From Affinundibacterium amnicola (lineage in GTDB: Bacteria; Pseudomonadota; Gammaproteobacteria; Burkholderiales; Burkholderiaceae_D), in contig NZ_JACOFU010000002.1 of the NCBI RefSeq assembly GCF_014284275.1, forward strand, positions 542,623-606,622: a stretch of DNA of 64,000 nucleotides, written 5' to 3'. The notes below the pieces were generated by a model that was not told the DNA's origin, did no database searches, and saw nothing but the letters and a program-made list of their open reading frames with translations. How positions within the stretch are numbered: position 1 is the first letter of the stretch; the number at the start of each line of letters is the position of its first letter. The translations under genes and the position numbers were made by a program. Of this stretch, positions 47,764 to 62,745 are shown piece by piece.

Positions 47764-48405
47764 ATGGCCTCATCAATGAAATCCTTTGCTGACCTTCAAC
47801 AAGTTGGTAAGCAACTCAAAGCACAACAAGAACTGCGTGCAAAAGCTGAAGCTGAGAGATTGGTACGTGAAAAACAAGCGGCAATTGAGGCGAATATTTT
47901 CCGTAGCACGGTCGGTGAGGTTCAAGCTATAAAGACGGCTGAAAAATTTCATCCAACGCCGAAAAAACCACCACCACTTCCTTTCAAGCATATCGAAGAC
48001 GAACAAAAAGCCTTACAAGAATCATTATCAGATGAATTCGATGCAGGTACATTGCTCGAATCTGATGAAAATTTAAGTTATACACGCCCTGGCGTGGGCA
48101 TCGACGTCGCTAAAAAATTACGTCAAGGTGCATGGGTTATACAAGCGCAACTCGATTTACACGGAATGCGCCGCGATCAAGCACGTGACAATCTTGGTGA
48201 TTTTTTACGCAAGTGCATACGTAGCGGATTTCGCTGCGTAAGAATAATTCACGGTAAAGGTTTGGGATCGATCAATAAAGAACCTGTATTGAAAAACAAA
48301 GTTCGTAATTGGTTGATACAGAAAGACGAAGTAATTGCCTTTAGCCAGGCAACTGCTGCTGATGGCGGTTCAGGTGCTTTGATTGTTTTATTGCGGGCTT
48401 CGTAA
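47764..48405 (+). CDS. Smr-domain protein (MutS2 C-terminal-like)
   Basis: The 213-residue protein has a charged coiled N-terminus (about 10-60, rich in Lys, Ala and Glu) and a C-terminal Smr domain (about 130-210) with LDLHGMRRDQARDNLGDFL and VRIIHGKGLGS, the LDxHG and HGxG motifs of this nuclease-related fold. Such proteins may nick DNA or cleave mRNA on collided ribosomes; the specific role is unknown. It follows trxB by 111 bp containing a hairpin repeat. Confidence 0.92.
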   Translation: MASSMKSFADLQQVGKQLKAQQELRAKAEAERLVREKQAAIEANIFRSTVGEVQAIKTAEKFHPTPKKPPPLPFKHIEDEQKALQESLSDEFDAGTLLESDENLSYTRPGVGIDVAKKLRQGAWVIQAQLDLHGMRRDQARDNLGDFLRKCIRSGFRCVRIIHGKGLGSINKEPVLKNKVRNWLIQKDEVIAFSQATAADGGSGALIVLLRAS

Positions 48406-48418
48406 GGGCTTTAGTCAA

Positions 48419-49222
48419 TTACATTTGGCGAAATAAATGCAGATAATTTCTGCTAACTGGTGCAACTTTGTCATGGCCTTTAAAATGAATGCTAGCGGTT
48501 TCGTTGTCACCTCGAATGACGTGACTGATGGCACTCATGTTGACGACGGTGGAGCGATGCACTTGCGAAAAAAACGTGGGGTTCAGTTGTGGCAAAAGCT
48601 CTCTCAAGGGCGTTCTAATTAAAGCCTCCGCCACTTTTCCATGTTCATCTCGCCAAGTGATAACAACATATTTATCATCGGCCAGAAAAAAATCAATATC
48701 TTCCACCGCGATCATGCGCAAGGTCTGGCCGATATTGACGCGTATCCAACGCAAAAATTGCGGCGCTCCTTTTGAAGGACTTTTTCCATCTTTTGCCTTT
48801 GCAAGTAAGTCCAACAAATCGTCTATGCGAGGAAGGTCTTGAGAACGTGATAGACGTTCTTTCAAGCGAGTGACTGTTTCGGCCAGGCGAGTGAACACAA
48901 CAGGTTTCACCAGATAGTCATGCGCCCCCTGCGCAAAAGCATCCAATGCATAATGATCGAATGCTGTCACAAACACCAAATGTGCTCGATTACCAATGAT
49001 ACGCGCAGCCTCTATCCCATTGAGCCCAGGCATATGCACATCCAAAAAACAAAGCTGCGGCTGGTATTGTTCAAATAGTTTTACTGCTTCACGACCATTT
49101 TTTGCATAGGCGACGATGCTCAATTCAGGCCACGCCTGTTGCAACATCAATGTTAATTCTTCACGCAATAAAGGCTCATCATCGGCGATCACCGCCGTCC
49201 ACTTTCCAAGGACTGTTTCCAT
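48419..49222 (-). CDS. LytTR-family response regulator
   Basis: A 267-residue regulator with a receiver domain (acidic pair DDE near 15-17, phosphoacceptor Asp in LCFLDVHMPGLNGIE, VTAFDHY, Lys in DYLVKPV) and a LytTR domain (about 165-265: IAVEDIDFFLADDKYVVITW; QVHRSTVVNMSAI). It is 2 bp past its kinase gene. A paralogue of the regulator at 31250-32053. A 22-bp direct repeat upstream of the kinase gene is a candidate target, implying autoregulation. Confidence 0.94.
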   Translation of the reverse strand: METVLGKWTAVIADDEPLLREELTLMLQQAWPELSIVAYAKNGREAVKLFEQYQPQLCFLDVHMPGLNGIEAARIIGNRAHLVFVTAFDHYALDAFAQGAHDYLVKPVVFTRLAETVTRLKERLSRSQDLPRIDDLLDLLAKAKDGKSPSKGAPQFLRWIRVNIGQTLRMIAVEDIDFFLADDKYVVITWRDEHGKVAEALIRTPLRELLPQLNPTFFSQVHRSTVVNMSAISHVIRGDNETASIHFKGHDKVAPVSRNYLHLFRQM

Positions 49223-49224
49223 GT

Positions 49225-50289
49225 TTAGCCTTTCCTTACAGGGAAAACAACTTCTGCATGCACGCCATGGGGTTCTATGGCCGTAATTTTCAAATATGCC
49301 TTATCGCCAAAATCAAGCTGCAAGCGCTCACGCAAACCTAACAGTCCGGTACCTAAACTAGGATGCGCAGATTGATTCGCATTGATATGAGATAAGCCAA
49401 CACCCGTATCTTTGACTTGTATCCGGCAGTGTTGTTGGTGAAGATCGACATTCACCTGAATCAGTCCGCCTTCTTCACTAGGATCAATGCCATGCCTGAC
49501 GGCATTTTCTACTAGGGTAAGCAAGGACATAGGCGGGCAATACATCGCTAACATCGCCTCGTCGATTTGCAAGGAAAACTGTAAACGATCTGGCATACGC
49601 ATTTGCATAATCTCAAGATAAGACCGTGCTAATTGCCACTCTTGTGCAAAGCTAGGCGGGGAGTGATGCAGGCGTGGCACAGCCGCTTGCAAATAGGCGA
49701 TCAAGCTATCTAATACCGCAGGCGCCTGGCGCGAACTGGTGTTCACCAAAGCGCGTATATTCGCCAGCGTATTAAACAAAAAATGGGGCTCAACTTGCGC
49801 TTGCAAAAGACGAAAGCGCGCATCTAAAGCTTGTCGTTCCAGCTCACTTCGTTCTAAGGCAAATGCCAAAGTTTGATGACGTGCTAGTGCATCTTTTTGA
49901 CGTACCAACGCGATCAATGCTATCCAAGGCCCAAACAATAAACTTGGAATATTCAAGAATGCGAAACCACCCAAACGATCTTTGACCAACCAAAATGCTG
50001 GCTGCCCCTGCTCTGTACTTATTACATAAAGAGTAAAGAAACCTATAGGTATCGTTATTGCTACCGCTAGAATTTGTAAAACCCAACGCGCCACCCAATT
50101 GGGTAAATTTTTTGGCCATTGCTCTAACACACCAAATGCTAGCATCGCACTTAAGCTCACCAACCACATACGTATAAACAAGACACTAATTTCAGCTCGC
50201 CACACCGAGGCAATTAGCAAGCCCAATAAAGACGATGCAACTAAAGTAAAAATGATGCGACTAGGTTTAAGTAGTTGTGCGAAGTTCAT
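49225..50289 (-). CDS. LytS-type membrane histidine kinase
   Basis: The 354-residue kinase has four transmembrane helices (about 13-28, 35-52, 66-87, 103-125), a His_kinase domain with phosphoacceptor in QVEPHFLFNTLANIRAL, and a HATPase domain (LLTLVENAVRHGIDP; VKDTGVGLSH; GTGLLGLRERL). It heads a two-gene unit with its LytTR regulator. Signal unknown. Confidence 0.93.
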   Translation of the reverse strand: MNFAQLLKPSRIIFTLVASSLLGLLIASVWRAEISVLFIRMWLVSLSAMLAFGVLEQWPKNLPNWVARWVLQILAVAITIPIGFFTLYVISTEQGQPAFWLVKDRLGGFAFLNIPSLLFGPWIALIALVRQKDALARHQTLAFALERSELERQALDARFRLLQAQVEPHFLFNTLANIRALVNTSSRQAPAVLDSLIAYLQAAVPRLHHSPPSFAQEWQLARSYLEIMQMRMPDRLQFSLQIDEAMLAMYCPPMSLLTLVENAVRHGIDPSEEGGLIQVNVDLHQQHCRIQVKDTGVGLSHINANQSAHPSLGTGLLGLRERLQLDFGDKAYLKITAIEPHGVHAEVVFPVRKG

Positions 50290-50391
50290 GATGAGCGTTT
50301 AAAAAACAATTAACCGTAGAATCATATATCAAGGTCGGATACTTCATGAGAAAACACCAAGTTAGGTAATGCAAAGACACCCAACTTCAAC

Positions 50392-50434
50392 CACTATTTA
50401 TTCCAATTTCAAGCACTATTTATCCCAATTTCCG
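50392..50434. promoter_or_regulatory. candidate LytTR binding site (22-bp direct repeat)
   Basis: CACTATTTATTCCAATTTCAAG (copy 1, 50392-50413; shown by position, core CACTATTTAT) is followed directly by CACTATTTATCCCAATTTCCG-like copy 2 (50414-50434), with one difference in the first 19 bases. The period of 22 bp is two helical turns, as for LytTR operators. It is 103 bp upstream of the LytS-type ATG and about 140 bp upstream of the divergent DUF4386 gene. Confidence 0.55.
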
Positions 50435-50572
50435 TGACTGACTCCCACCTATCGTCACTGGCGATATTGATGTCTTCATTCATCTTAAAGACTGCGCAAG
50501 AGGCATTTGATCTCTGTATCTTCACAAAACAAGAACAGCACTTCTATTTAAATTATCTACAAAAAGGCTCAT

Positions 50573-51253
50573 ATGAATGATCTACAAAAAACAGGAAGAA
50601 TCGTAGGATTATTGCTATTAATTGCAATGATTATTGGCATGTATAGTAACTTCGCATTAAATGATCCTATATTTGGAGGTGCGGGATACTTAGTCAATGG
50701 ACTGCAACATCGCACTTTATTTGGGCTCAATGTCGTCGCTGACTTCATTAACTCATCCATCGGCATCACAGTAGCCGTCCTAGTTTATTCTAAAACATGG
50801 CGCAACTATCCGAAGTTAAGCATGACTTATCTCAGCGTTGTCATCGTAAGTGTCGCAGTTGGTCTGTCAGAACAAGCGCACTTTATGTCCCTGCTATCGC
50901 TTAGCGAACAATTTGCTAAACATCCAGCACTAGACCCGCAGTTGTTTGATGTGATGAAAGCGATGATTTCCGCTGACCGTAATTGGTATCATTTCATAGG
51001 AAAAATTAGTGGTGGCGCATCTTTGTTTCTACTCTACGTGCTCCTCTACCGTACACAATTTATCTTTCGACTAATTTCTCTATTCGGTATGTTCGCAGCA
51101 GCAATGCAAATGAGCGGAATATCTGTCGAATTCTTTTCACATGATCTAAATAAGATGATGTTGTACCCCATGGGTATAGCCCACCTAATATTGATTATTT
51201 GCTTATTGATTAAGGGCTTTTCCGAGAAAACTCCCGATAAGCATCTGACTTAA
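50573..51253 (+). CDS. DUF4386 family membrane protein
   Basis: A 226-residue protein with about six transmembrane helices and the DUF4386 start pattern TGRIVGLLLLIAMIIGMYSN, then the internal SVAVGLSEQAHFMSLLSLS and KISGGASLFLLYVLLYRTQF. ATG at 50573 with AAAAAGG upstream. Function unknown. It is divergent from the LytSR pair and could be one of its targets, since a direct repeat lies between. Confidence 0.85.
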   Translation: MNDLQKTGRIVGLLLLIAMIIGMYSNFALNDPIFGGAGYLVNGLQHRTLFGLNVVADFINSSIGITVAVLVYSKTWRNYPKLSMTYLSVVIVSVAVGLSEQAHFMSLLSLSEQFAKHPALDPQLFDVMKAMISADRNWYHFIGKISGGASLFLLYVLLYRTQFIFRLISLFGMFAAAMQMSGISVEFFSHDLNKMMLYPMGIAHLILIICLLIKGFSEKTPDKHLT

Positions 51254-51351
51254 TCCAGATTGAAGAAATTCTCATTCGAATTAATTGCTGTCTTTCAGTG
51301 AATTTCATACTATCAATTCACTATTTTCTAACTCATCAAAGGATTTCACTC

Positions 51352-51669
51352 ATGAAAAAAGTTATTTTTGTTAGTTTAGCTCTTAGTTTACTTGCGGGCT
51401 GTGCATCTATGGTTGTATCTGATGACGTAATCGTGCAAAGAACAGCATTCGCGTTAAGCATTGATGCATCCTCTTTTACGATATCAAGTCGTATGGATGA
51501 AGGAACGACAACGCGCTACAGCGTGACCACTAAAACAGGAAGAAAATATCACTGTTTTTTAGGCGGATCAATTAGCATTGCAGGTAAAAGCATTTCAGAA
51601 GCTATATGTAATGCCCTTGGTGAACCTGCATTAAGTCCGCTTTTGGAGCGAGCGAAAAAAATTCAATAA
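51352..51669 (+). CDS. small lipoprotein, paralogue of the frameshifted one near 21 kb
   Basis: A 105-residue protein with a lipoprotein signal (MKKVIFVSLALSLLAGCAS, lipobox LAGC). The mature part has SDD, TAFALSID, ISSRMDEGTTTRYSVTTKTG, a single later Cys and GG. These line up with the protein at 20687-20968. The ATG at 51352 has AAAGGA upstream; the frame extends to 51298 but the lipobox decides. Function unknown; the shared core suggests a folded envelope domain with a disulfide or a reactive Cys. Confidence 0.78.
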   Translation: MKKVIFVSLALSLLAGCASMVVSDDVIVQRTAFALSIDASSFTISSRMDEGTTTRYSVTTKTGRKYHCFLGGSISIAGKSISEAICNALGEPALSPLLERAKKIQ

Positions 51670-51723
51670 GCCCTACATTGGTATACTAAAATAGTAAATA
51701 CCAACGCTTTAGGCGATTAAATT

Positions 51724-51748
51724 ACCTCCGGCAAAGTCGGAGGTTTAT
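51724..51748 (+). terminator. probable short terminator
   Basis: ACCTCCG pairs with CGGAGGT around GCAAAGT, followed by TTATTG, 55 bp past the lipoprotein gene. The T-run is weak. Confidence 0.55.
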
Positions 51749-51769
51749 TGCTGGAGCGCCTAGAAGGCA

Positions 51770-52045
51770 CTAAGAACATTTCATCGAATCATACTCTTCA
51801 TTTTCTTGCTCCAAATGACGAATGTAGGCACGCACCATTTCTTCGTCTAAACCGACTGTCGAAACAAAATAACTTCTCGCCAAAAATATCTCACCTGTAA
51901 AGTTTCACTATCGTTCACCAACGCGACGAACTTTCGTATTCGCGCATTTCCTTTTAATAAAACCGACCACATTTGACACTGAATATTTCAGAGGGCAAAC
52001 TCAAACAATAAGTACATAAGGGTGATTCAGCTTGGTGAAGTCCTT
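51770..52045 (-). pseudogene. IS200-type transposase relic 1
   Basis: Read leftward, the translation gives the C-terminal half of an IS200-family TnpA: KYSVSNVVGFIK, then after decay NFTGEIFLARSYFVSTVGLD and EEMVRAYIRHLEQENEEY, ending at a stop at 51770. There are in-frame stops and shifts upstream (two stops before NFTGE; a shift before CLSLP). The HUH motif region reads NHPY where DHVH is expected, so the element is dead. The second tyrosine-containing segment (RAYIRHLE) is kept. No N-terminal part recognised. Confidence 0.8.
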
Positions 52046-52285
52046 ATGCAAGACCATTTTAAGTATTTAGAAGGTGCGAAGCAAACGCTGTTTCGACTCG
52101 CTCGACCATTGTCAAAGCGTGCTTTGACTCCCCAGTCCTGCACTTAAACAAAGCCACTTACGGGAGCAGGGAGTACGTTCGCAATTATCTTGAATTGTTG
52201 GACTTGTGTAGACGCCTATCCCGGCAGAACTGGGGAATTGCCGTATTTATCAAATTCAGTTGACATTCTGCAGTTTGTTAGTCAA
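52046..52285. other. non-coding region next to the IS200 relic
   Basis: It follows the relic and leads to the end of the TonB receptor gene. A perfect 8-bp-arm palindrome GTCAAAGC-GT-GCTTTGAC lies at 52111-52128. No gene is called; a 33-codon frame at 52046 is rejected. It may be a leftover of mobile DNA. Confidence 0.4.
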
Positions 52286-54478
52286 CTAGAACTTATGTTC
52301 AAAGCTGAGACTCATGTTTCGCGCACGATTGACAGTAGTGTGTAAAGTACTGACGTAGCCAGGTACGCGGCTTTGACTAAACGTATCGATTGAATTACTG
52401 TTAGTGATGTTACTAATAGCTAAACGTAGTTGACTCTTCTTGTCGAATTTCCATAAGCCGACTAAGTCAAGATTGGTGGGCATTTCAATGTATGTACGAT
52501 CTGTAAGGCTAATTTGTTGCCAATGTGCATCCTGTAGCTTTGTGTTCATACCGAATGTCAACGGCATATCTTTCAAACGATAATTCAAGCTAAACGTAAG
52601 CTCATAAGTATAGGGATTAAGTTGATTAAAAGGCTGCGGCAAACCTTTGACGTCAGACCAAAAATGTAGGTAACTCATACTAATATCAATATCTGGCGCT
52701 TCGAGTACAAAGCGTTTGAGTGGAAACTGTGTACTTAGTTCTAGGCTTTTCCCTAGCGCACTACCAGTATTAATATATTTCCTCCACCAAGCTCTATTTT
52801 CAAAAAAAATTGTGTCGCGATGCAAATCATCGATTTGCTGAATTTTGGCGCGTACCGCATAATTTAAACCATCTTTACCATTATGCTCATAGGCAGCATC
52901 TAAACCCCATGCTAATTCAGGACGCAAATTCGGGTTGCCTACAAAATTGGGGTTTTGAATTGAGTTGTTAACCAAATAAATTTTTGGTGAGACTAGATAG
53001 AAGTCATTTGGCGCCTGATAGGTGCGTGCTAGACCGAGTCGAATTCTGTCTGTATTGTGTGAATTAAGCTGCCACATGGTTTGTACAATTGGGCTTAAAA
53101 CATTAGTGGAATATCTTGATTTATCTTGTGCAGAACCTTCACTATTAATACTAAGTGATTCCCATCGAAGGCCAAGATAAAGCGATGAATTTTTTTGCAA
53201 TTTCCATTCGTCTTGAGCATAGAGCGCAGATTTATAAAGTTCGTTACGCCCATTTTGAGGTAGATAAACTGGTATTGCATTATTTTTATAAAAGTCAGTT
53301 TGATTACGGTCAATATGGACAGTGGTGCCCGATCCTGTCCACCCCATCACCAGATCGTGCTCAGCATTAGTAGGAATACTGAATTTGCCGCTGCTATTTC
53401 CACCCAATATACGCACGTGAGTATCATAATTGCGCACGAGGCTAAGGTCTCCATTTAAACTGTAATTTTGTGAGCTATCTGTATTTTTGATGCGCTGCGC
53501 ATGGAATCCGCCAGAAATATCGAGTTTTAGGTCGTTACTAAAGCTAGTCGTTGCGCGCATCGTGCTACTCAAATTAACACGTTCAGTGGTGTCATGAACA
53601 CGCATTGCCGCGACATCCAAAGGCTCACCCTGCAAGAAAGTATAACTTCTAGAAGTATCCCTTTCACTATTACTATAGGCTAGCATCGTCGTTGAAGTCA
53701 GATTGATGTTGGAATTAGTTCTATATTGAAGCCGTGGCGCGATGCGTATATCACGATCTTTTACATTTCTATCCAACAGCGAATCATATTGCTGTAGGAC
53801 TTGATCCGTGTCATCCGAAATCGTTTGTTTGTTTAGCGTCTTTTTTGGCGTGTTTGCACTGATTGAATTCTGTGATGCTGTGGCAACAACCGAATGAGAA
53901 AAATCCCCTTGTTTGCCAGAATTGTTCCACTCAACAGTTCCTTGTCCATGTTGCACGTAAGCGGCGGTAATTTTTATTGATTGCTGTGCGGAAGATGCAA
54001 CACGTTTAAGAACAATATTAACGGTTCCACCTATAGCCTGCGTACTAAATTGTGCATTTGCTGTGCGATAAACTTCGATACGCTCTATCATTTGCATAGG
54101 GATATCTTCAACATTAACACCTCGTGGTGGCTCGCCGTCAATTAACACTTGCGTATAACTGGCGTTCATGCCCAACAGCTGAATTTTATTGTTATTTACT
54201 TGCACACCTGGTACACGACGCATCGCATCAAGCACATTGGTATCGCCAAACTTGAGTAAATCGGCACTACCTATAATCGTTTTTGCTGCCGCTTCTTGAT
54301 ATGCCAATTGAGCTTCGCTACGTGCCTGAATTTCAACACGCTGAGGCTCCTCTTTTTTTATGGCTGGTTTTTCTTGTGCGATGCGGGTTTTGTCCGAATT
54401 AGTTTGTTGCGCGTGAGCGCTCACGACAAGGGTATTGCACAATAGTAGAGTGAGTACAGAACTTAATGGTGCTTGCAT
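52286..54478 (-). CDS. TonB-dependent outer-membrane receptor
   Basis: The 730-residue receptor has a signal peptide (about 1-24, ending SAHAQ), a plug domain (about 55-165: VLDAMRRVPGVQVNNNKIQL, TQVLIDGEPPRG, IERIEVYRTANAQFSTQAIGGTVNIVLK in parts) and a 22-strand barrel to the C-terminus, ending MSLSFEHKF with the terminal Phe of OMPs. The plug resembles ferric-siderophore or peptide/carbohydrate receptors, and the ligand cannot be told. No TonB-box can be named with certainty. The ATG at 54478 follows GAGGTAATT. A 16-bp palindrome lies 49 bp upstream. Confidence 0.93.
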   Translation of the reverse strand: MQAPLSSVLTLLLCNTLVVSAHAQQTNSDKTRIAQEKPAIKKEEPQRVEIQARSEAQLAYQEAAAKTIIGSADLLKFGDTNVLDAMRRVPGVQVNNNKIQLLGMNASYTQVLIDGEPPRGVNVEDIPMQMIERIEVYRTANAQFSTQAIGGTVNIVLKRVASSAQQSIKITAAYVQHGQGTVEWNNSGKQGDFSHSVVATASQNSISANTPKKTLNKQTISDDTDQVLQQYDSLLDRNVKDRDIRIAPRLQYRTNSNINLTSTTMLAYSNSERDTSRSYTFLQGEPLDVAAMRVHDTTERVNLSSTMRATTSFSNDLKLDISGGFHAQRIKNTDSSQNYSLNGDLSLVRNYDTHVRILGGNSSGKFSIPTNAEHDLVMGWTGSGTTVHIDRNQTDFYKNNAIPVYLPQNGRNELYKSALYAQDEWKLQKNSSLYLGLRWESLSINSEGSAQDKSRYSTNVLSPIVQTMWQLNSHNTDRIRLGLARTYQAPNDFYLVSPKIYLVNNSIQNPNFVGNPNLRPELAWGLDAAYEHNGKDGLNYAVRAKIQQIDDLHRDTIFFENRAWWRKYINTGSALGKSLELSTQFPLKRFVLEAPDIDISMSYLHFWSDVKGLPQPFNQLNPYTYELTFSLNYRLKDMPLTFGMNTKLQDAHWQQISLTDRTYIEMPTNLDLVGLWKFDKKSQLRLAISNITNSNSIDTFSQSRVPGYVSTLHTTVNRARNMSLSFEHKF

Positions 54479-55003
54479 AATTACCTCGATAAAAAATTGA
54501 CCTGTTTTTGGTTTCAAAACACAGATACTTCAAATTTGAAGTGGATCAAACTATATCGGGTAGAAGAATGAAGCTTATTACGATTCCGATGAAATGCGGA
54601 TTCAATTACGTGAGTTACGGAACTCACAAAATCGATAAGTAAAAATAGTATTCACTCGATAGAAACTGCCTTCAATACTGAATTAACGATAGTGAAGTTA
54701 TGTGTGATAACGCCGGCAACTAAACGACTTCTAAAGCATCAAAGGTGAGAATAACGAGGTCGGCATCTTGACACCGCGAGGCTGTTTAATGTTTGCTGGA
54801 TTTATTTTTTCGCTTATCTAGACTGTACATTAATTAGAATCTGCAACGATATGATCGTCATCAACCCCATTCGCTAGAGCTAATTGAAAAGGACAAATCC
54901 CAACCTATCTCTTTAAAGATATTATCGTCGCTGTCGATCAAGGGAATTTGTCGCCCCCCAATAAAGTTCAAGGCTGAAGACAAATCGCCAATTAAAAACT
55001 ACA
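54479..55003. other. 525-bp intergenic region
   Basis: It contains the palindrome at 54527-54542 and a second perfect small inverted repeat GTGAGTT-ACGG-AACTCAC at 54610-54627. No gene or terminator is recognised between the receptor and the next leftward gene, which ends at 55004. Confidence 0.5.
54527..54542. promoter_or_regulatory. candidate operator upstream of TonB receptor
   Basis: ACTTCAAATTTGAAGT is a perfect 16-bp palindrome 49 bp upstream of the receptor ATG, well placed to overlap or adjoin its promoter. It is not a Fur-box-like GATAATGATAATCATTATC sequence. The regulator is unknown. Confidence 0.55.
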
Positions 55004-55690
55004 TTAATCCTTCAAAGGATTCTTGGTATTAAAAGCTTGCCCCGCCAAGCATTTTTTCAATTCATCACGGGCAGCGTGTCCGCCCTGCCACTCGACGTCG
55101 ACGATCTTTTGTCCTTTGTACTCCAAGTGAAAATCCAACTTATCGTCCATGCTGGCGAGTGCCGCTTCGATACTAGGTACCGCAAATACAGCGACCGGCA
55201 ATTCCATCGTACCAAGGGTGTAATTTAGTACGTGCAGGCTCACTGGTGAGTCTTGCCCTTGTTTTAAGCTCACCAAAACTTTACTTGGTTTGGGCGATGT
55301 AGGAAACGCGGGATTGTCATTGCCATTAAAGAGCATCATCAATGCGCCTTTGTAGCTGCCGCCCGGCCCCATGATCGTCACACCCATGCCTTCTCGCATA
55401 AACATCGCTGTGCAATATTCACCTTTCTTTGCCGATGAACTACCTTGAAAGAATTGCCAATAGCCTTCTTTATGCATCTTATGGTACTTGCTGTCTAAGA
55501 AACCCGTTTTTGTCGCTTCTATCGTCTGCCTGGCGTTAATTTCTTTCTTACTTGTGTCCATCATGCTACCGAGTACATCAAAGGTATTTTCTTTAACTTG
55601 AGCCAAACTTTGAAACGCGAGTAAGCTCACTCCCGCTAGTAACAAAACGGATTTGTTTAATACACGATTGTTCAGTTGACTTTGGTTCAT
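55004..55690 (-). CDS. exported protein of unknown function
   Basis: A 228-residue protein with a signal peptide (about 1-31, ending SLAQ). The mature part has a YWQFFQGSSSAKKGEYCTAMF segment in pieces (YWQFFQG, KKGEYCTAMFMREG), a Gly-rich IMGPGGSYKGALMMLF and a beta-rich C-terminal half. There are two cysteines (in EYCTA and KKCLAG). The start at 55690 has GAGGAG upstream; the longer frame to 55783 overlaps the previous gene. It is 31 bp past the 396-residue exported protein gene and so in an operon with it. No family recognised. Confidence 0.7.
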   Translation of the reverse strand: MNQSQLNNRVLNKSVLLLAGVSLLAFQSLAQVKENTFDVLGSMMDTSKKEINARQTIEATKTGFLDSKYHKMHKEGYWQFFQGSSSAKKGEYCTAMFMREGMGVTIMGPGGSYKGALMMLFNGNDNPAFPTSPKPSKVLVSLKQGQDSPVSLHVLNYTLGTMELPVAVFAVPSIEAALASMDDKLDFHLEYKGQKIVDVEWQGGHAARDELKKCLAGQAFNTKNPLKD

Positions 55691-55721
55691 TGAATGACTC
55701 TCCTCATCATTATGGAATACG

Positions 55722-56912
55722 CTAATCTGGAATACGTGAAAGACCATGGCAAAGATCCTTTGCCATGCCGTTGTGACTGCCATCGGCTCTCACCTTAACA
55801 TCCGCGACACGCCACACCGATTTTTTATCCTGCATGGTGGCAAACTCGACAAAGCATTCAGCGTACACACCCTCGGACACGAAAGCGCCGCTGCCCATGT
55901 GCACCGCGTAACCTCGATTGTCAAAATATTTGGTGTAAGTTAAAAAACGCGTATTACCCACATCGCTCAGAGCTGGCTTACCCATTTTGTCGATCACTGC
56001 TTGCTCTTCTTTGCCGATCCAAACACTGTTGAGTGAGGTCTCAAACTTGTTTAACTGACGACCTTGGCGCAATTTTGCAGCCTTACTATGAAACTCAGCA
56101 TTAGCATCCATCTTGGCGATACTGTCTTGTAACTCCTTCTTCATCGCTTCCAGCCGAGGCGCATTTTTTTCATAATCGTCTTGCAGCTTTTTCACAGCGG
56201 CATCTTTGTCCGCTTGACTGGCTTTTTGCGTCCACTTGCCACTGGGATTAGGGCGATTCCCTTCAAATACGGTTTCCCACCACAAAAAAGTCCACGCATA
56301 GTCGAGAAAATCACTGGCCAACACGGCACCAATTAACTGCATATCGACAGGCAAATTAAACTGCCCATTGATCGCTTTGCCGAACTTATCGTGATCAAAT
56401 GGTTTTTTCTTCGACAGGTCGATCAGTAGGTTTTTAAAATTCCCTTCATTGCAGGCAATCGCAGCGGCTTTACTTAACATCGGCGCATTGGACTTTTTCC
56501 AATCACTTTCTGGTAAAGGCTCAGACTTCAAATCAGCGCGCCGCAATTTGTAGCTTCCCGGTCCAATTCTAAAAGTAGCCACCTCACCTGCTTTGACTGC
56601 ATGAGGGTTCTCATTAGCAGTGCCTTTTTCAGAATCGATGATCACTTGTGGTCTACATTGAAACCACATATTCATGTACACCCACTCTGGCTTATCGAGA
56701 TGTTCGTAGACCGCAGTCAACTGCAATTCTCGAATCTCTATCGGGCCAAATATTTGATCGACGGGAGTACGATTCAAAACCGTTCTGACGTTAGCAAAAT
56801 AGGCTTCTCTATCACCTTTCTGTCCTTGAATATGAACAATAATTCCCAATGCAAAAGCTTGAGAATGACTTAAAAAAAATCCTGTCAATAGGCAAGAAAA
56901 AAAACGTTTCAT
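55722..56912 (-). CDS. exported protein of unknown function with BamE-like C-terminal region
   Basis: A 396-residue protein with a signal peptide (about 1-22, ending SQAFA), a beta-rich N-terminal half (about 23-160), a middle with LPVDMQLIGAVLASDFLDYA, a coiled segment of Lys/Asp/Glu (about 235-275) and a C-terminal part NSVWIGKEEQAVIDKMGKPA, then RFLTYTKYFDNRG, CFVEFAT and VWRVADVKV. The last part has the pattern GK..Q.VI..MGKP.......LTY, like SmpA/OmlA (BamE)-fold domains. TTGGAG precedes the ATG at 56912. First gene of a pair with the 228-residue exported protein. Function unknown. Confidence 0.7.
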   Translation of the reverse strand: MKRFFSCLLTGFFLSHSQAFALGIIVHIQGQKGDREAYFANVRTVLNRTPVDQIFGPIEIRELQLTAVYEHLDKPEWVYMNMWFQCRPQVIIDSEKGTANENPHAVKAGEVATFRIGPGSYKLRRADLKSEPLPESDWKKSNAPMLSKAAAIACNEGNFKNLLIDLSKKKPFDHDKFGKAINGQFNLPVDMQLIGAVLASDFLDYAWTFLWWETVFEGNRPNPSGKWTQKASQADKDAAVKKLQDDYEKNAPRLEAMKKELQDSIAKMDANAEFHSKAAKLRQGRQLNKFETSLNSVWIGKEEQAVIDKMGKPALSDVGNTRFLTYTKYFDNRGYAVHMGSGAFVSEGVYAECFVEFATMQDKKSVWRVADVKVRADGSHNGMAKDLCHGLSRIPD

Positions 56913-56967
56913 ACAGAACTCCAATAATTAAACATGCCTGCCATGACAGCGATATCGATAGCAGGCA

Positions 56968-57414
56968 TTACATTAACTCACATCCATTGGAAAGCACAAA
57001 AAAAGCTTCTCCATCCGCATCAATGTGCGTTTTACGCCAACCAGCTTTTTCGTAAAAGCGCGATGCGCGGGTGGCGTCATCCGTACTTAGATTTAAGCGA
57101 CCTAATCCTTGCGCAAATAACCAATCCACCATGACCTCATGCAGCGCTCTCCCATAGCCCTTTCCTTCATGTTCAGGCGACACAAATAATGCCCATATAT
57201 TGCCAGTCTGCGCATTGCCGATGGCAAATGCCACTACCTCACCTATGACTTCAATCACCCAGCCACGTCCTGTGATTTCTATTGCGGGATAATAATCCTC
57301 CTCGCCAATAACGCTCGAAGTCAGCCTATTTTCACGCACTGCTAACCGCACTCGGTGCATTCCTGCAATATGCGTCCTATTTGCGATGACTATCGTCGTT
57401 TGAATTTGAGTCAT
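56968..57414 (-). CDS. GNAT family N-acetyltransferase
   Basis: A 148-residue GNAT protein. It has the strand before the acetyl-CoA loop IWALFVSPEHEGKGYGRALH (with Q/R-x-x-G-x-G-like EGKGYGRA), and the end LNLSTDDATRASRFYEKAGW. Substrate unknown. The ATG at 57414 is chosen over a TTG at 57426. It lies between the exported-protein pair and the haloperoxidase-like gene on the same strand. Confidence 0.9.
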   Translation of the reverse strand: MTQIQTTIVIANRTHIAGMHRVRLAVRENRLTSSVIGEEDYYPAIEITGRGWVIEVIGEVVAFAIGNAQTGNIWALFVSPEHEGKGYGRALHEVMVDWLFAQGLGRLNLSTDDATRASRFYEKAGWRKTHIDADGEAFFVLSNGCELM

Positions 57415-57481
57415 GAATAAGTTCAATAAAAGTTTTCAATAAAGGCTGATCATGACGCTACCAGCCTTTTCACCACAAAAG

Positions 57482-58714
57482 CTACTTCTTTAATGGCCTC
57501 ATAATTTTATCCAATACCGCTTTCCCTGCGCTACGTCCTAAATTTTCACCGGCCTCATTGGCAAAACGAAAATGGGCACCAGCATAAATGCGCGAGTCAG
57601 ATACTTGCTGTGACCATTCATTCCAACTTGGTAGAATTTGTATGACTGCTTTTGGCGACGATAGCGATGCAACGCGCACGCCCTTCATCGGTTTTTGACC
57701 ATCTTCCGCCACCATTATTTCCGCAATTGATCCCGCATATGAACAATGGCCACATGGATATTCTGGGAAATTCGGCGTTGGTAAAAACGATTCCCATCCT
57801 GCTTCTGCTTGCGTGGCATTGTTGCCGTCATTCGCAGCGTTACGAATAGCGACAATAGGACGCCACGTGTTGTAGTGCATCTTGGCTGCCGACATAGCGA
57901 GCGTACTATCGTCGATCGCCATGTAAACACGTGCATACATGCGCGCATTTTGCACCATACTGCGTCCATTTGTTTCTGCGGTTTGACGCAAAGACGGTAA
58001 GATGTCCGGCATAATGCGATACGAAGCCATCAGGCTTTGATGCGGTGTTCTATGCTGACTTACTTTTCCACCTAAACGTTTCACTTCATCGTAGTCTTGC
58101 GTCCAACGCGCACTATTGATGGACGGCGGTGGCGGCGAACGCAATGCCTCGGCACTAGAAATAGCCCAAGGAAAGAAAGCCAAATTATGCGGGCGAATAG
58201 AAGGTAAATCGGTAGCAGTCCAAATGCCGACCGTAGCGTGAGGCCGATAAGGTGTTTGGACGATTTTCGGATCTATCCCACCTACCGCCAATGCTGCCTT
58301 GGCAGCTTGCTCACCGATTTGCCGCCCAGCTTCGCGTTGCGCATCATTTGGAATCGCCTCCATCGCAATCGCATATGCATCATTAAGCTCATTTTTTACG
58401 CTGGGAAAATGTTCGATCAAAACCCGATACGCAGCGGTGACAGCAGCAGCCTCTACTGACGCTGCTTTATCACTTTCAGGAAAGCTGACATAACTTTCAT
58501 ACCGACGATCAATGGCATTGAGTGCTTCGAACATCGCCAGTGCTACACGAGTGGTAGCACGCGCACTTTCTGGGCGTACTTTTGCTTCCGCTGCTGGTGC
58601 AAGAGGACTATTGATACGGCTAGAGAACTCTATCCAATCACTCACTGTATCTGCCGCTACAGGGTGTGAAAATGCGAATACGCCAGCCAACATCAAACAT
58701 ATAATTTTCTTCAT
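57482..58714 (-). CDS. vanadium-dependent haloperoxidase-like / PAP2-fold phosphatase, exported
   Basis: A 410-residue protein with a signal peptide (about 1-22, ending PVAAD) and an all-helical PAP2-fold. Active-site motifs are KMHYNTWRPIVAIR (Lys and Arg), PEYPCGHCSYAGSIAEI (His323, in the S/C-G-H motif with Cys before Gly) and SRIYAGAHFRFANEAGENLG (Arg and His). This set binds phosphate or vanadate. Such bacterial proteins may be haloperoxidases or phosphatases; the sequence cannot separate these. The ATG at 58714 has a normal start, MKKIICLMLAGVFAF. Confidence 0.88.
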   Translation of the reverse strand: MKKIICLMLAGVFAFSHPVAADTVSDWIEFSSRINSPLAPAAEAKVRPESARATTRVALAMFEALNAIDRRYESYVSFPESDKAASVEAAAVTAAYRVLIEHFPSVKNELNDAYAIAMEAIPNDAQREAGRQIGEQAAKAALAVGGIDPKIVQTPYRPHATVGIWTATDLPSIRPHNLAFFPWAISSAEALRSPPPPSINSARWTQDYDEVKRLGGKVSQHRTPHQSLMASYRIMPDILPSLRQTAETNGRSMVQNARMYARVYMAIDDSTLAMSAAKMHYNTWRPIVAIRNAANDGNNATQAEAGWESFLPTPNFPEYPCGHCSYAGSIAEIMVAEDGQKPMKGVRVASLSSPKAVIQILPSWNEWSQQVSDSRIYAGAHFRFANEAGENLGRSAGKAVLDKIMRPLKK

Positions 58715-59136
58715 TTGCGTTTCCTAATTCGGTCATTAAAGGAGAATATTCGTGACTCAATTTGCTATCTATTCAGCTTTCGTCATGCGACGTTTTCAAC
58801 AAGATATTGGATTGAATATTGAGATTATTCTCTGACCAAGTTAGGTTTTCTATAGACTCAAGACGAGTGACGGTTTGATACCCTTCAAAAGCGATTGGGC
58901 AGCGCAAATGGGGTTGAGATGTTCGACTGACCTCTCATTACTTCTTGGATGTTTTGCTTTACAGCCTTAGTGAAAGACCTCTCAGAAGAAGATACTTATG
59001 TTTGATATTGAGATGCCTTCACGCGAAACAGAAAGTTTTATTAAATCCATTCACTAATATGAGAAATAAGGACTATGACATAACCTGCAACGCAATATTC
59101 GAAGGCGCTGGTAACCCTTGTATCGTCTAAAGACGG
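58715..59136. other. intergenic region upstream of haloperoxidase-like gene
   Basis: 422 bp with no believable gene; a 61-codon frame at 58945-59130 has no ribosome site. It must hold the promoter of the haloperoxidase-like gene. No palindrome I would defend. Confidence 0.45.
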
Positions 59137-59450
59137 CTACAGTCCCAATTTCATTTGGTCATACCGTTCATCCTTCTGCTCCTGATTTCGGACGTATGCA
59201 CTAACCATTTCTTCATCGAGTCCCACCGTTAAAATAAAATATCTTCTTACCCAGAATACCTCACATGTAAAATTCCTTTGCTGTCCACCAAGATGTCTGG
59301 CTATTGATATCACACTCTTACACTTGATAAAACCGACAACGTTTCAAACTGACTACTTGAGTGGAATGCTCAAACACATGTGAACATGGTCAGTCATCAA
59401 GTAACCTTCAACAATATAAGCTAGAACGATACTACCAGTAGACTGTTGAT
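59137..59450 (-). pseudogene. IS200-type transposase relic 2
   Basis: Leftward translation gives IS200-type TnpA: VEGYLMTDHVHMCLSIPLK, then two in-frame stops around SV, NVVGFIKCKSVISIARHLGG, NFTCEVFWVRRYFILTVGLD and EEMVSAYVRNQEQKDERYDQ, ending at a stop at 59137. The HUH pair (HVH) and the tyrosine of YVRNQ are still present. The in-frame stops and missing N-terminus make it a pseudogene. It lies on the same strand as the relic at 51770, and the two bracket the 52.3-58.7 kb block. Confidence 0.82.
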
Positions 59451-59511
59451 TGCTTGAATGTTGTGCTTTGTAGCCCAACTGCGATCTAATCCACCAAAAC
59501 CTGAATACAAT

Positions 59512-59546
59512 AAAAGGCGCTCAGTCCATCGAGAGAGCACCTTTTT
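59512..59546 (-). terminator. rho-independent terminator after the PII gene
   Basis: Read leftward, AAAAAGGTGCTC pairs with GAGCGCCTTTT (one G-T pair) around a 12-base loop, followed by ATTGTATTC. It lies about 46 bp past the stop of the PII gene at 59592. Confidence 0.8.
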
Positions 59547-59591
59547 CATGATGAGTTTTCATCCAGTTTCGTCATTTTAGATACACAATCA

Positions 59592-59945
<354 letters not shown>

Positions 59946-59956
59946 TTACTCATATT

Positions 59957-61579
59957 TTAATCACGGAACTTCGAAGTAATTGGGTAACGCCAATCACGGC
60001 CAAATGCGCGATGCGTAATCCGGATTCCTACTGGTGCCTGACGTCGTTTATATTCGTTAATTTTGATTAAACGCGTTATGCGCTCAACATCGGCTTCGCT
60101 GTATCCCGCCGCGACAATCTCAGCTCGTGACTGATTTTCTTCCATATAACGCTGCATAATACCGTCGAGAATATCATACGGTGGCAAGGAATCCTGATCC
60201 TTTTGATCTGGCCTTAACTCCGCGGATGGTGGTCGCGTGATGATGCGTTCGGGGATGACATCACCAATTGAATTTCGATATGCACAAAGTCGATAAACCA
60301 TGGTTTTAGCGACATCTTTAATTACCGCAAATCCACCGGCCATATCGCCATACAAGGTGCAATAACCAACCGCCATTTCACTTTTATTACCAGTGGTCAA
60401 AACGATAGAGCCATATTTATTCGACATCGCCATCAAGATGGTGCCGCGAATACGTGCTTGAATATTTTCTTCTGTCGTATCTTCTTGCAAGCCGGCAAAC
60501 TCTTGACTCAAGGTATTTCTAAACGCGGCAAAACATTCGTTAATTGAAATTTCATCGTAACGCACACCGATGCGCTTGACCATATCGCGCGAATCTAACC
60601 ACGAAATATCCGCTGTGTAAGGCGAAGGCATCATGACTGCTCGCACTTTCTCCACACCTAAAGCATCGACCGCGATCGCTAAGGTCAAAGCAGAATCGAC
60701 ACCGCCTGAGAAACCAATTAAAACACTAGGAAAACCGTTCTTCGTCACATAATCACGCACTCCCAACACGAGCGCGCGATAAATTTGTGCTTCTACTGAC
60801 ATAGTCTCCGCCACAATACTGGCTTGTGGTAAACCGTTGATAAAATCAACAATCTGCAAATCAGCTTCGCAGTGCTTCAATTGTGCGCAAACCTGTCCTT
60901 CATGATTCAGCACAAAAGAATTACCATCAAAAATCAATTCATCCTGACCGCCCAACAAATTTGCATACACCAAACTCATGCCTAGCGAACTGATGTTTCG
61001 GCGCATAACCTCAATACGAAAATCATTTTTATTCATGTGAAACGGCGAAGCATTCGGTGCTAATAAGACTTGAGCGCCAGCAGCGCGTGCTAATTGTGGC
61101 GCATCACCATTCCAAACATCTTCACAAATATTGATACCAAAACGCGTGCCCTTCACCTCAAACACGACCGCTTGATCGCCTGTGACAAAATAACGCTTTT
61201 CATCAAATACGGCATCATTCGGTAAGGCGTGTTTCAAATAGGTATGAATGATCGCACCATTCAGCAAAACCGAAATCGCGTTATAGTGATATCCATCTTG
61301 CGCTAATGGATGCCCAACCAACACATAGATGTTTTGAAATTGCTGTAAATCGCTGGTTAATTTTTGTAATGCCGCTTGTGTTTGCTGATAAAACGCAGTG
61401 CGTAAAAGCAAATCCTCTGGCGGATAACCAACTAATGATAGTTCAGGCGTCACCACAATATCGGCAGACTGAGCAGCTGCGCGGCTTACATAAGCAACGA
61501 TTTGCTGAGCATTGCCAAGCAGATCGCCAACGATGCTATTCATTTGAGCAATCGCAACTTTTACTGTATTTGCTGTCAT
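59957..61579 (-). CDS. nadE: glutamine-dependent NAD(+) synthetase
   Basis: The 540-residue enzyme amidates nicotinic acid adenine dinucleotide to NAD+. An N-terminal nitrilase-like glutaminase (residues 1-260) has the catalytic triad Glu in TPELSLVGYPPEDLLLR, Lys in YLKHALPN and Cys in GINICEDVW. The C-terminal synthetase has the P-loop GFSGGVDSAL, and GNKSEMAVGYCTLYGDMAGG. The start is the ATG at 61579 (MTANTVKVAIAQMNS); no strong ribosome site. Its start codon is only 20 bp from that of the divergent DUF482 gene. Followed by glnB. Confidence 0.95.
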   Translation of the reverse strand: MTANTVKVAIAQMNSIVGDLLGNAQQIVAYVSRAAAQSADIVVTPELSLVGYPPEDLLLRTAFYQQTQAALQKLTSDLQQFQNIYVLVGHPLAQDGYHYNAISVLLNGAIIHTYLKHALPNDAVFDEKRYFVTGDQAVVFEVKGTRFGINICEDVWNGDAPQLARAAGAQVLLAPNASPFHMNKNDFRIEVMRRNISSLGMSLVYANLLGGQDELIFDGNSFVLNHEGQVCAQLKHCEADLQIVDFINGLPQASIVAETMSVEAQIYRALVLGVRDYVTKNGFPSVLIGFSGGVDSALTLAIAVDALGVEKVRAVMMPSPYTADISWLDSRDMVKRIGVRYDEISINECFAAFRNTLSQEFAGLQEDTTEENIQARIRGTILMAMSNKYGSIVLTTGNKSEMAVGYCTLYGDMAGGFAVIKDVAKTMVYRLCAYRNSIGDVIPERIITRPPSAELRPDQKDQDSLPPYDILDGIMQRYMEENQSRAEIVAAGYSEADVERITRLIKINEYKRRQAPVGIRITHRAFGRDWRYPITSKFRD

Positions 61580-61599
61580 AAGATTTAAGGCAATTAACG

Positions 61600-62745
61600 A
61601 TGAATTCTGAAGTATCACATTATCGCATGCGCTTGGTCGATTCTCTATCGGAGATTGGACAAGCAAATTGGGACGGATTATTGCAATTGCAGACCAAGCC
61701 AAATCCTTTTTTATCCTACGCGTTCTTACATGCTTTACACGAATCCGGTTCTGCTTCGACTAAAACTGGATGGACACCGCGCTTCATCAGCATTTGGAAC
61801 GGTCAAGAACTCATGGCCGCTATGCCTCTGTACGAGAAAAGCCACTCTTATGGTGAATATGTATTTGATTGGGCATGGGCCAATGCCTACCATCAACATG
61901 ATGTCGCCTATTATCCCAAACTACTATCTGCGATTCCCTTTACACCAATTGAAGGCAATCGCTTGCTAGCACGTGATCAGCAAGCACAGCAGGCACTAAT
62001 AAGAAATTTACAAGCAATTACACAAAGTGGTCTGTATTCCTCTTGTCATTTGCTTTTTCCAACCGAACCAGAAATAGGGGTTTTACAACAAGCTGGCTTC
62101 ATGACGCGACAAGGTGTGCAATTTCATTGGCAGAATCAAAATTTTCAGGATTTCGAAGATTTCTTGATGCATCTTGATCAAAAAAAACGCAAAAACATTC
62201 GCGCCGAAAGACGCAAAGTAAGTCAAGCTGGGGTTCAATTTCAGCACTTACGCGGCGCTGACATTACGGAACAGGACTGGAAATTTTTCAAGCAATGCTA
62301 CGACAGAACCTATGCTGAACATCATTCTTCGCCCTATTTAAACTTAGATTTCTTTCTTCGTATTGGACAAGAAATGCCTAAGCACCTCTACCTAGTGATT
62401 GCGATTCTAGACGGGAGAAGAATTGCCGCCGCGCTATTTATCTATGACCATCAAACAATTTATGGCAGGTACTGGGGCTGCCTTGAACACCTACCCTGCT
62501 TGCATTTTGAGACAGCATATTATCAAGCCTTAGATTTTTGTATCAGCGAAAAGATACAAACATTCGAGGGTGGCGCGCAAGGCGAGCACAAATTAGCACG
62601 TGGATTTTTACCGCATAAGACATACTCTGCGCACTATTTGAATGAACCTGCATTTGCAAATGCAGTAGCGCACTTTCTCGAGCGAGAACAAGGTGGAATC
62701 GAGCGCTATATGGATGAACTGAATGAGCACTCCCCATTTAAGTAA
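61600..62745 (+). CDS. DUF482 (peptidogalycan biosynthesis / GNAT-like) protein
   Basis: A 381-residue cytoplasmic protein of the FemAB/GNAT-like DUF482 family. It has WDGLLQLQTKPNPFLSYAFL and HALHESGSA near the N-terminus, YGEYVFDWAWANAYHQH, the FLMHLDQKKRKNIRAERRKV core, and TFEGGAQGEHKLARGFLPHKTYSAH near the end. Some members are named for a role in surface polysaccharide or peptidoglycan modification; that is not proven. The ATG at 61600 has AAGG eight bases upstream and is divergent from nadE by 20 bp. Confidence 0.9.
   Translation: MNSEVSHYRMRLVDSLSEIGQANWDGLLQLQTKPNPFLSYAFLHALHESGSASTKTGWTPRFISIWNGQELMAAMPLYEKSHSYGEYVFDWAWANAYHQHDVAYYPKLLSAIPFTPIEGNRLLARDQQAQQALIRNLQAITQSGLYSSCHLLFPTEPEIGVLQQAGFMTRQGVQFHWQNQNFQDFEDFLMHLDQKKRKNIRAERRKVSQAGVQFQHLRGADITEQDWKFFKQCYDRTYAEHHSSPYLNLDFFLRIGQEMPKHLYLVIAILDGRRIAAALFIYDHQTIYGRYWGCLEHLPCLHFETAYYQALDFCISEKIQTFEGGAQGEHKLARGFLPHKTYSAHYLNEPAFANAVAHFLEREQGGIERYMDELNEHSPFK

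Follow-up and report, generated by a model that had tools for sequence, protein, structure and literature searches.

Genes and features between the left flank gene and glnB

The stretch of DNA analysed here (the window, 64 kb, G000:C12:542623-606622) contains a block of accessory genes situated between a gene for a 213-aa protein, which we take to be an Smr-domain protein, and glnB. The genes and features of the block and its flanks are as follows (positions in the window):

47764-48405, plus strand: left flank gene, 213-aa protein, 100% aa identity in G008
48419-49222, minus strand: response regulator, LytTR type (NCBIfam response-regulator models, below cut-offs; a plasmid match is annotated LytTR)
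49225-50289, minus strand: sensor histidine kinase (57% to the closest protein in the genus, G008:C299, and 56% to a paralogue in G000)
50573-51253, plus strand: DUF4386 protein (Pfam PF14329, E 1.4e-26)
51352-51669, plus strand: small lipoprotein-like protein (no family match; lipoprotein by eye, LLAGC)
51716-52250, minus strand: relic 1, IS200-type element in decay, its two ends still recognisable and its tnpA interrupted by stops and frame shifts
52286-54478, minus strand: TonB-dependent receptor (genus relatives G054 75%, G052 74%, G024 73%, G003 68%)
55004-55690, minus strand: exported-looking protein 1 of no recognised family (no family match)
55722-56912, minus strand: exported-looking protein 2 of no recognised family (best relative 33%; no Pfam or NCBIfam match)
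56968-57414, minus strand: GNAT acetyltransferase (Pfam PF00583, E 1.1e-14)
57482-58714, minus strand: PAP2/vanadium-haloperoxidase-like protein (Pfam matches E 4e-5 and 6e-5, below curated cut-offs)
59099-59415, minus strand: relic 2, internal piece of an IS200-type element without recognisable ends, containing two stops
59592-59930, minus strand: right flank gene glnB (P-II; Pfam PF00543), with the right edge of the block at its stop codon

The left flank gene was found in 40 of the 43 genomes of the genus (G000 included), and its stop codon lies 13 bp from that of the response regulator. Neither an integrase nor an intact transposase was recognised in the nine larger ORFs of the block that were scanned (seven with Pfam, all nine with NCBIfam), and the region 49000-62000 yielded no match to Rfam at gathering scores. 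The initial annotation had placed a TonB receptor, two exported proteins, an acetyltransferase and a haloperoxidase-like enzyme between the two relics, and our analysis agrees with this description, the two exported-looking proteins being without a Pfam match and the acetyltransferase belonging to the GNAT family. Exported-looking protein 2 has a paralogue of 33% identity in the same genome (G000:C23:481284-482477), and relatives of 28–33% in G008, G042 and G002. The haloperoxidase-like gene has no counterpart in the 42 genus relatives at E 1e-20, which leaves G000 alone among the 43 genomes. The K-x6-RP, PCGH and SR-x3-G-x-H stretches of its product, identified by eye, resemble the vanadate site, and the best solved relative is 4cit, a vanadium-dependent haloperoxidase (E 5.1e-8).

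Two decayed IS200-type elements

A search of the genome with PF01797 (Y1_Tnp) gave nine matches, two of which fall within the window, and confirmed the presence of two decayed IS200-type tnpA relics on the same strand, close to where the initial annotation had put them. Both matches are on the minus strand and above the cut-off: 51815-52018 in relic 1 (E 2.6e-6, 29.4 bits), with three in-frame stops (two TGA and one TAG), and 59182-59418 in relic 2 (E 1.4e-14, 56 bits), with two (one TGA and one TAG). A DNA search with the relic 2 stretch found matches in seven of the 43 genus genomes (G000 included), among them four near-complete copies of the element in G049; in G000 itself this search, carried out with a stretch devoid of IS ends, identified no third copy. 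The G049 copies are 622 bp long and carry a hairpin near each end, and they served to set the limits of both relics; the transposase of such a copy matches NCBIfam NF033573 (IS200) at 7.3e-41. Several contigs of G053 (L023, L030, L032, L034, L035, L037) end inside copies of the same element, which indicates that the G053 assembly is broken at its IS copies.

The two relics differ in what is left of the element. In relic 1, 30 of 31 and 26 of 32 bases match the IS ends (best of 60 shuffles: 20 and 19), and folding is retained by the left hairpin (z -2.17) and lost by the right one (z 0.38). In relic 2 no IS ends were recognised, since the best values (15/31 and 16/32) are at chance level (shuffles up to 18 and 19). 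The remark in the initial annotation that the IS ends are not seen is thus correct for relic 2, where neither was found, and has to be revised for relic 1, where both are present. Beyond 59415 the MAFFT alignment of relic 2 to the IS extended further, without support from BLAST, and these columns were left out.

The relics show 67% DNA identity to each other over ~230 bp. Among the IS loci compared, the best-scoring one for relic 2 is from G053 (82% alike, with G049 close behind), and that for relic 1 is L103 from a Glaciimonas MAG (70% alike). The relics look like two separate copies rather than one copy that was duplicated. An intact HUH motif together with the tyrosine in an open frame is absent from both, as both contain stops; in relic 1 the second H of HUH is gone as well, as is the Q of Y---Q, and its N-terminal part did not align (roles of the HUH histidine and of Y---Q in TnpA according to PMC6006769). 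The relics resemble the IS200 type of the IS200/IS605 family, as described in that source and by NF033573, in that they match TnpA and that, in the near-complete 622-bp copies, a hairpin lies close to either end and Y---Q adjoins the tyrosine; unlike the elements described there, both copies in the window are dead and neither bounds the block.

Edges of the block and the locus in other genomes

The nearest relative at this locus is G008, with 97.6% DNA identity over 3957 bp in the left flank and 98.0% over 396 bp in the right flank. The empty site in G008 is clean: window base 48405 is followed by a 71-bp spacer and then by the glnB end at 59594. The acquired block therefore corresponds to ~48406-59593 (11,188 bp, or 11.2 kb), with its left junction directly after the stop codon of the left gene and its right junction at the glnB stop codon, which reads TGA in the window and TAG in G008. 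In close relatives the gene ending at 48405 directly precedes glnB, and the window is collinear with G002 except for 48405-59607, the sole internal stretch of more than 300 bases without a DNA counterpart in G002. The block thus lies between the left flank gene and glnB, its site is empty in G008 and other close relatives, and the relics are inside it, not at its edges: it reaches 3.3 kb to the left of relic 1, and its right edge is 178 bp outside relic 2. This bears on the proposals made previously in two ways. The region was indeed singled out properly as the laterally acquired part of the window, in view of the single gap relative to G002 and the empty site in G008. Its extent, given as 51770-59450, was too small, and the clean empty site expected in relatives does exist, albeit with edges at 48405/48406 and 59593/59594 instead of at the relics.

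The spacer of G008 can be aligned with the spacers of G002 and G042, and hence the empty state is the older one. The G008 genome is 73% complete, and the block may sit elsewhere in it; the best match in a DNA search of G008 with 48406-51700 was 70% over 400 bases. A hairpin in the G008 spacer was considered as a terminator and rejected, as a terminator scan found none there. Next to glnB, close to where the block ends on the right, there is another hairpin, with a T run, at 59512-59545 (folding z -1.76); it may be a terminator acquired together with the block.

For 40 of the 42 relatives we obtained the locus or one of its sides. In twelve the gap is no longer than 208 bp, 24 carry a gene for a substrate-binding protein (in L185 a partial match, 44%), one (G043) carries LysR and SDR genes, and three (G054, G009, G018) were not closed. 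No block genes were found in the gap in any of the 37 closed loci; accordingly, we encountered among these no relative with the block but without relics, or with relics at other places, a situation that the initial annotation had named as incompatible with its proposal. In G054 (L080:288-5398) LysR and SDR genes are followed by a TonB receptor beside the Smr gene, and the contig ends after the receptor, which is 75% alike to that of the window and located at the same locus in the opposite orientation. In G009 (L195, L044) the Smr-glnB adjacency was not seen: the two flanks are on different contigs, with type IV pilin-like genes (identified by eye) after glnB and other genes after the Smr gene. 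Neither the left gene nor nadE was found in G007 or G052.

Composition gives no indication of a foreign source. The GC content of the block is 43.2%, compared with 44.0% for the 10 kb to its left and a mean of 45.0% (sd 2.7) for 111 1-kb windows, so GC carries no signal of foreign origin for the block. The codon use of the block genes is likewise unremarkable: for the most unusual one, encoding the lipoprotein-like protein, 2 of 19 size-matched genes are as far out, for the GNAT gene 6 of 32, and the others are well inside. The comparison of GC and codon use with the surroundings, which had been suggested as a check, thus gave no signal of foreign origin. Searches for a donor of the block in contigs, family genomes, plasmids and phages found none. 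A haloperoxidase pattern search of contigs matched 87 stretches, none of them a relative; of 392 genomes of the family, a sample taken from a larger group, 30 (G000 included) had a haloperoxidase match, those in the others being 30–37% alike at the aa level. Among plasmids, 48406-56000 retrieved two records (a match to the kinase/regulator and a match to an IS) and 54500-59600 retrieved 22, of which the ten listed match the relic 2 stretch only; 48406-56000 had no match among phages.

Origin of the block and the role of the relics

We consider it probable (roughly 70%) that the segment between the Smr-domain gene and glnB is a recent lateral block, perhaps placed by recombination in its flanks, and that the IS relics are passengers. 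The lineage would have acquired the block after separating from G008 at this locus, through homologous recombination in the core genes on either side that exchanged the spacer for it; relic 1, and probably relic 2 as well, would have been dead by the time of arrival and carried along as inert passengers. Such double recombination in the flanks appears to be the most likely route. Fourfold divergence from G008 ranges from 4.7 to 64% over 14 gene pairs (L056, L058, L082 and L207 of G008 versus the window, L059, L205 and L204), the value of 64% resting on 50 sites of a pair that may be badly matched; DNA identity to G008 elsewhere is mostly 90.5–92.2%, and the flanks of the block (97.6–98.0%) are among the more similar stretches. 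The unevenness of the fourfold divergence suggests frequent recombination in the lineage. No donor tract is visible in the flanks, where identity to G008 stays uniform as far as the junction, and this neither proves nor excludes recombination; the left gene has two differences from G008 in its last ten bases. Hotspots that lack mobile elements, and in which recombination takes place at the core genes on either side, are on record (Oliveira et al. 2017, PMC5635113). The present locus is similar to the hotspots of that paper in having an accessory block between two core genes, no recognised integrase, content that varies between relatives and a lineage with signs of recombination; it is dissimilar in that no recombination tract is shown in the flanking genes and that one genome has the block, in a comparison across species and not within one.

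The decay of the relics was compared with the age of the insertion. At fourfold sites of three left-flank genes and glnB, 46 of 599 (7.7%) differ from G008, which corresponds to ~3.9% per lineage if split evenly, with 7.7% as the extreme case of all changes in one lineage. As a reference we used 58 TnpA frames (57 usable ones from 83 IS loci, 26 of the 83 having been dropped for lack of a usable frame, plus the reference); L024, one of the 58, has a frame shift of its own near the C-terminus; more residues thereby count as seen, and the test becomes more lenient. A residue or stop never seen in these frames is encoded by 16 of 79 codons in relic 1 and 13 of 91 in relic 2, whereas the frames themselves have a median of 2 private residues and at most 12. 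In a neutral simulation at 3.9%, started from three G049 copies and not from the relics' own ancestors, the count of relic 1 was reached in 0 of 4000 runs and that of relic 2 in 0.6%; at 7.7% the figures were 5% and 34%, with 83 codons simulated for relic 1 versus 79 compared, which is again lenient. The decay of relic 1 exceeds what the time elapsed since the split from G008 would readily explain, and this relic was probably dead on arrival. The same is likely for relic 2, but less firmly so, because the 7.7% simulation reaches its count in 34% of runs.

Composite transposons are made of two IS copies, and two related relics in one orientation around a set of genes do recall such an arrangement. 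It was from this layout that the initial annotation suggested a possible arrival or rearrangement of the block with IS200 activity. That IS200 brought or bounded the block, the two copies having formerly delimited a mobile unit with the segment between them, we regard as highly improbable: the edges of the DNA missing from relatives are 3.3 kb and 178 bp outside the relics and not at an IS, relic 1 is self-contained with two ends of its own while relic 2 has none, the copies are only 67% alike, and relic 1 looks older than the insertion. An old block that was lost from the relatives is even less probable, since it would require many separate exact losses and the spacer of G008 is alignable with those of G002 and G042, although the host-like GC and codon use would fit it. 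Least credible of all is a block misjoined at the locus by the assembly, as judged from the assembly itself: the block sits within a contig of 884 kb, in a genome whose listed completeness is 99.77% and whose listed contamination is 0%, and it matches its host in GC and codon use.

A build-up in steps, in which the left part (the two-component system, DUF4386 and lipoprotein genes) and the right part arrived at the same variable site at different times, has more in its favour, and we regard it as unlikely, not as implausible. The site is variable among the 40 loci (short gaps, substrate-binding protein, LysR-SDR), G054 has its related TonB receptor there in the opposite orientation, and an IS relic is inside the block, but no intermediate was seen among the relatives examined. 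As a tentative extension of acquisition by flank recombination, to which we give slightly less than one chance in three of being right, the Smr-glnB junction may be a recurrent exchange site in the genus, at which homologous recombination within the Smr-domain gene and glnB would exchange gene sets, related TonB receptors (also that of G054) among them, with dead IS copies travelling between species as inert cargo.

The block is thus best read as a recent gene island of an ordinary kind that contains fossil IS copies. The presence of IS relics around a gene set does not show that the IS moved the set, and here this natural inference is corrected: the true edges come from the empty site in a near relative, and the extent of decay points to at least one relic predating the insertion. 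Ordinary as this type of event is, borders have now been set for the DNA with which the lineage recently gained a two-component system, a TonB receptor and a haloperoxidase-like enzyme.
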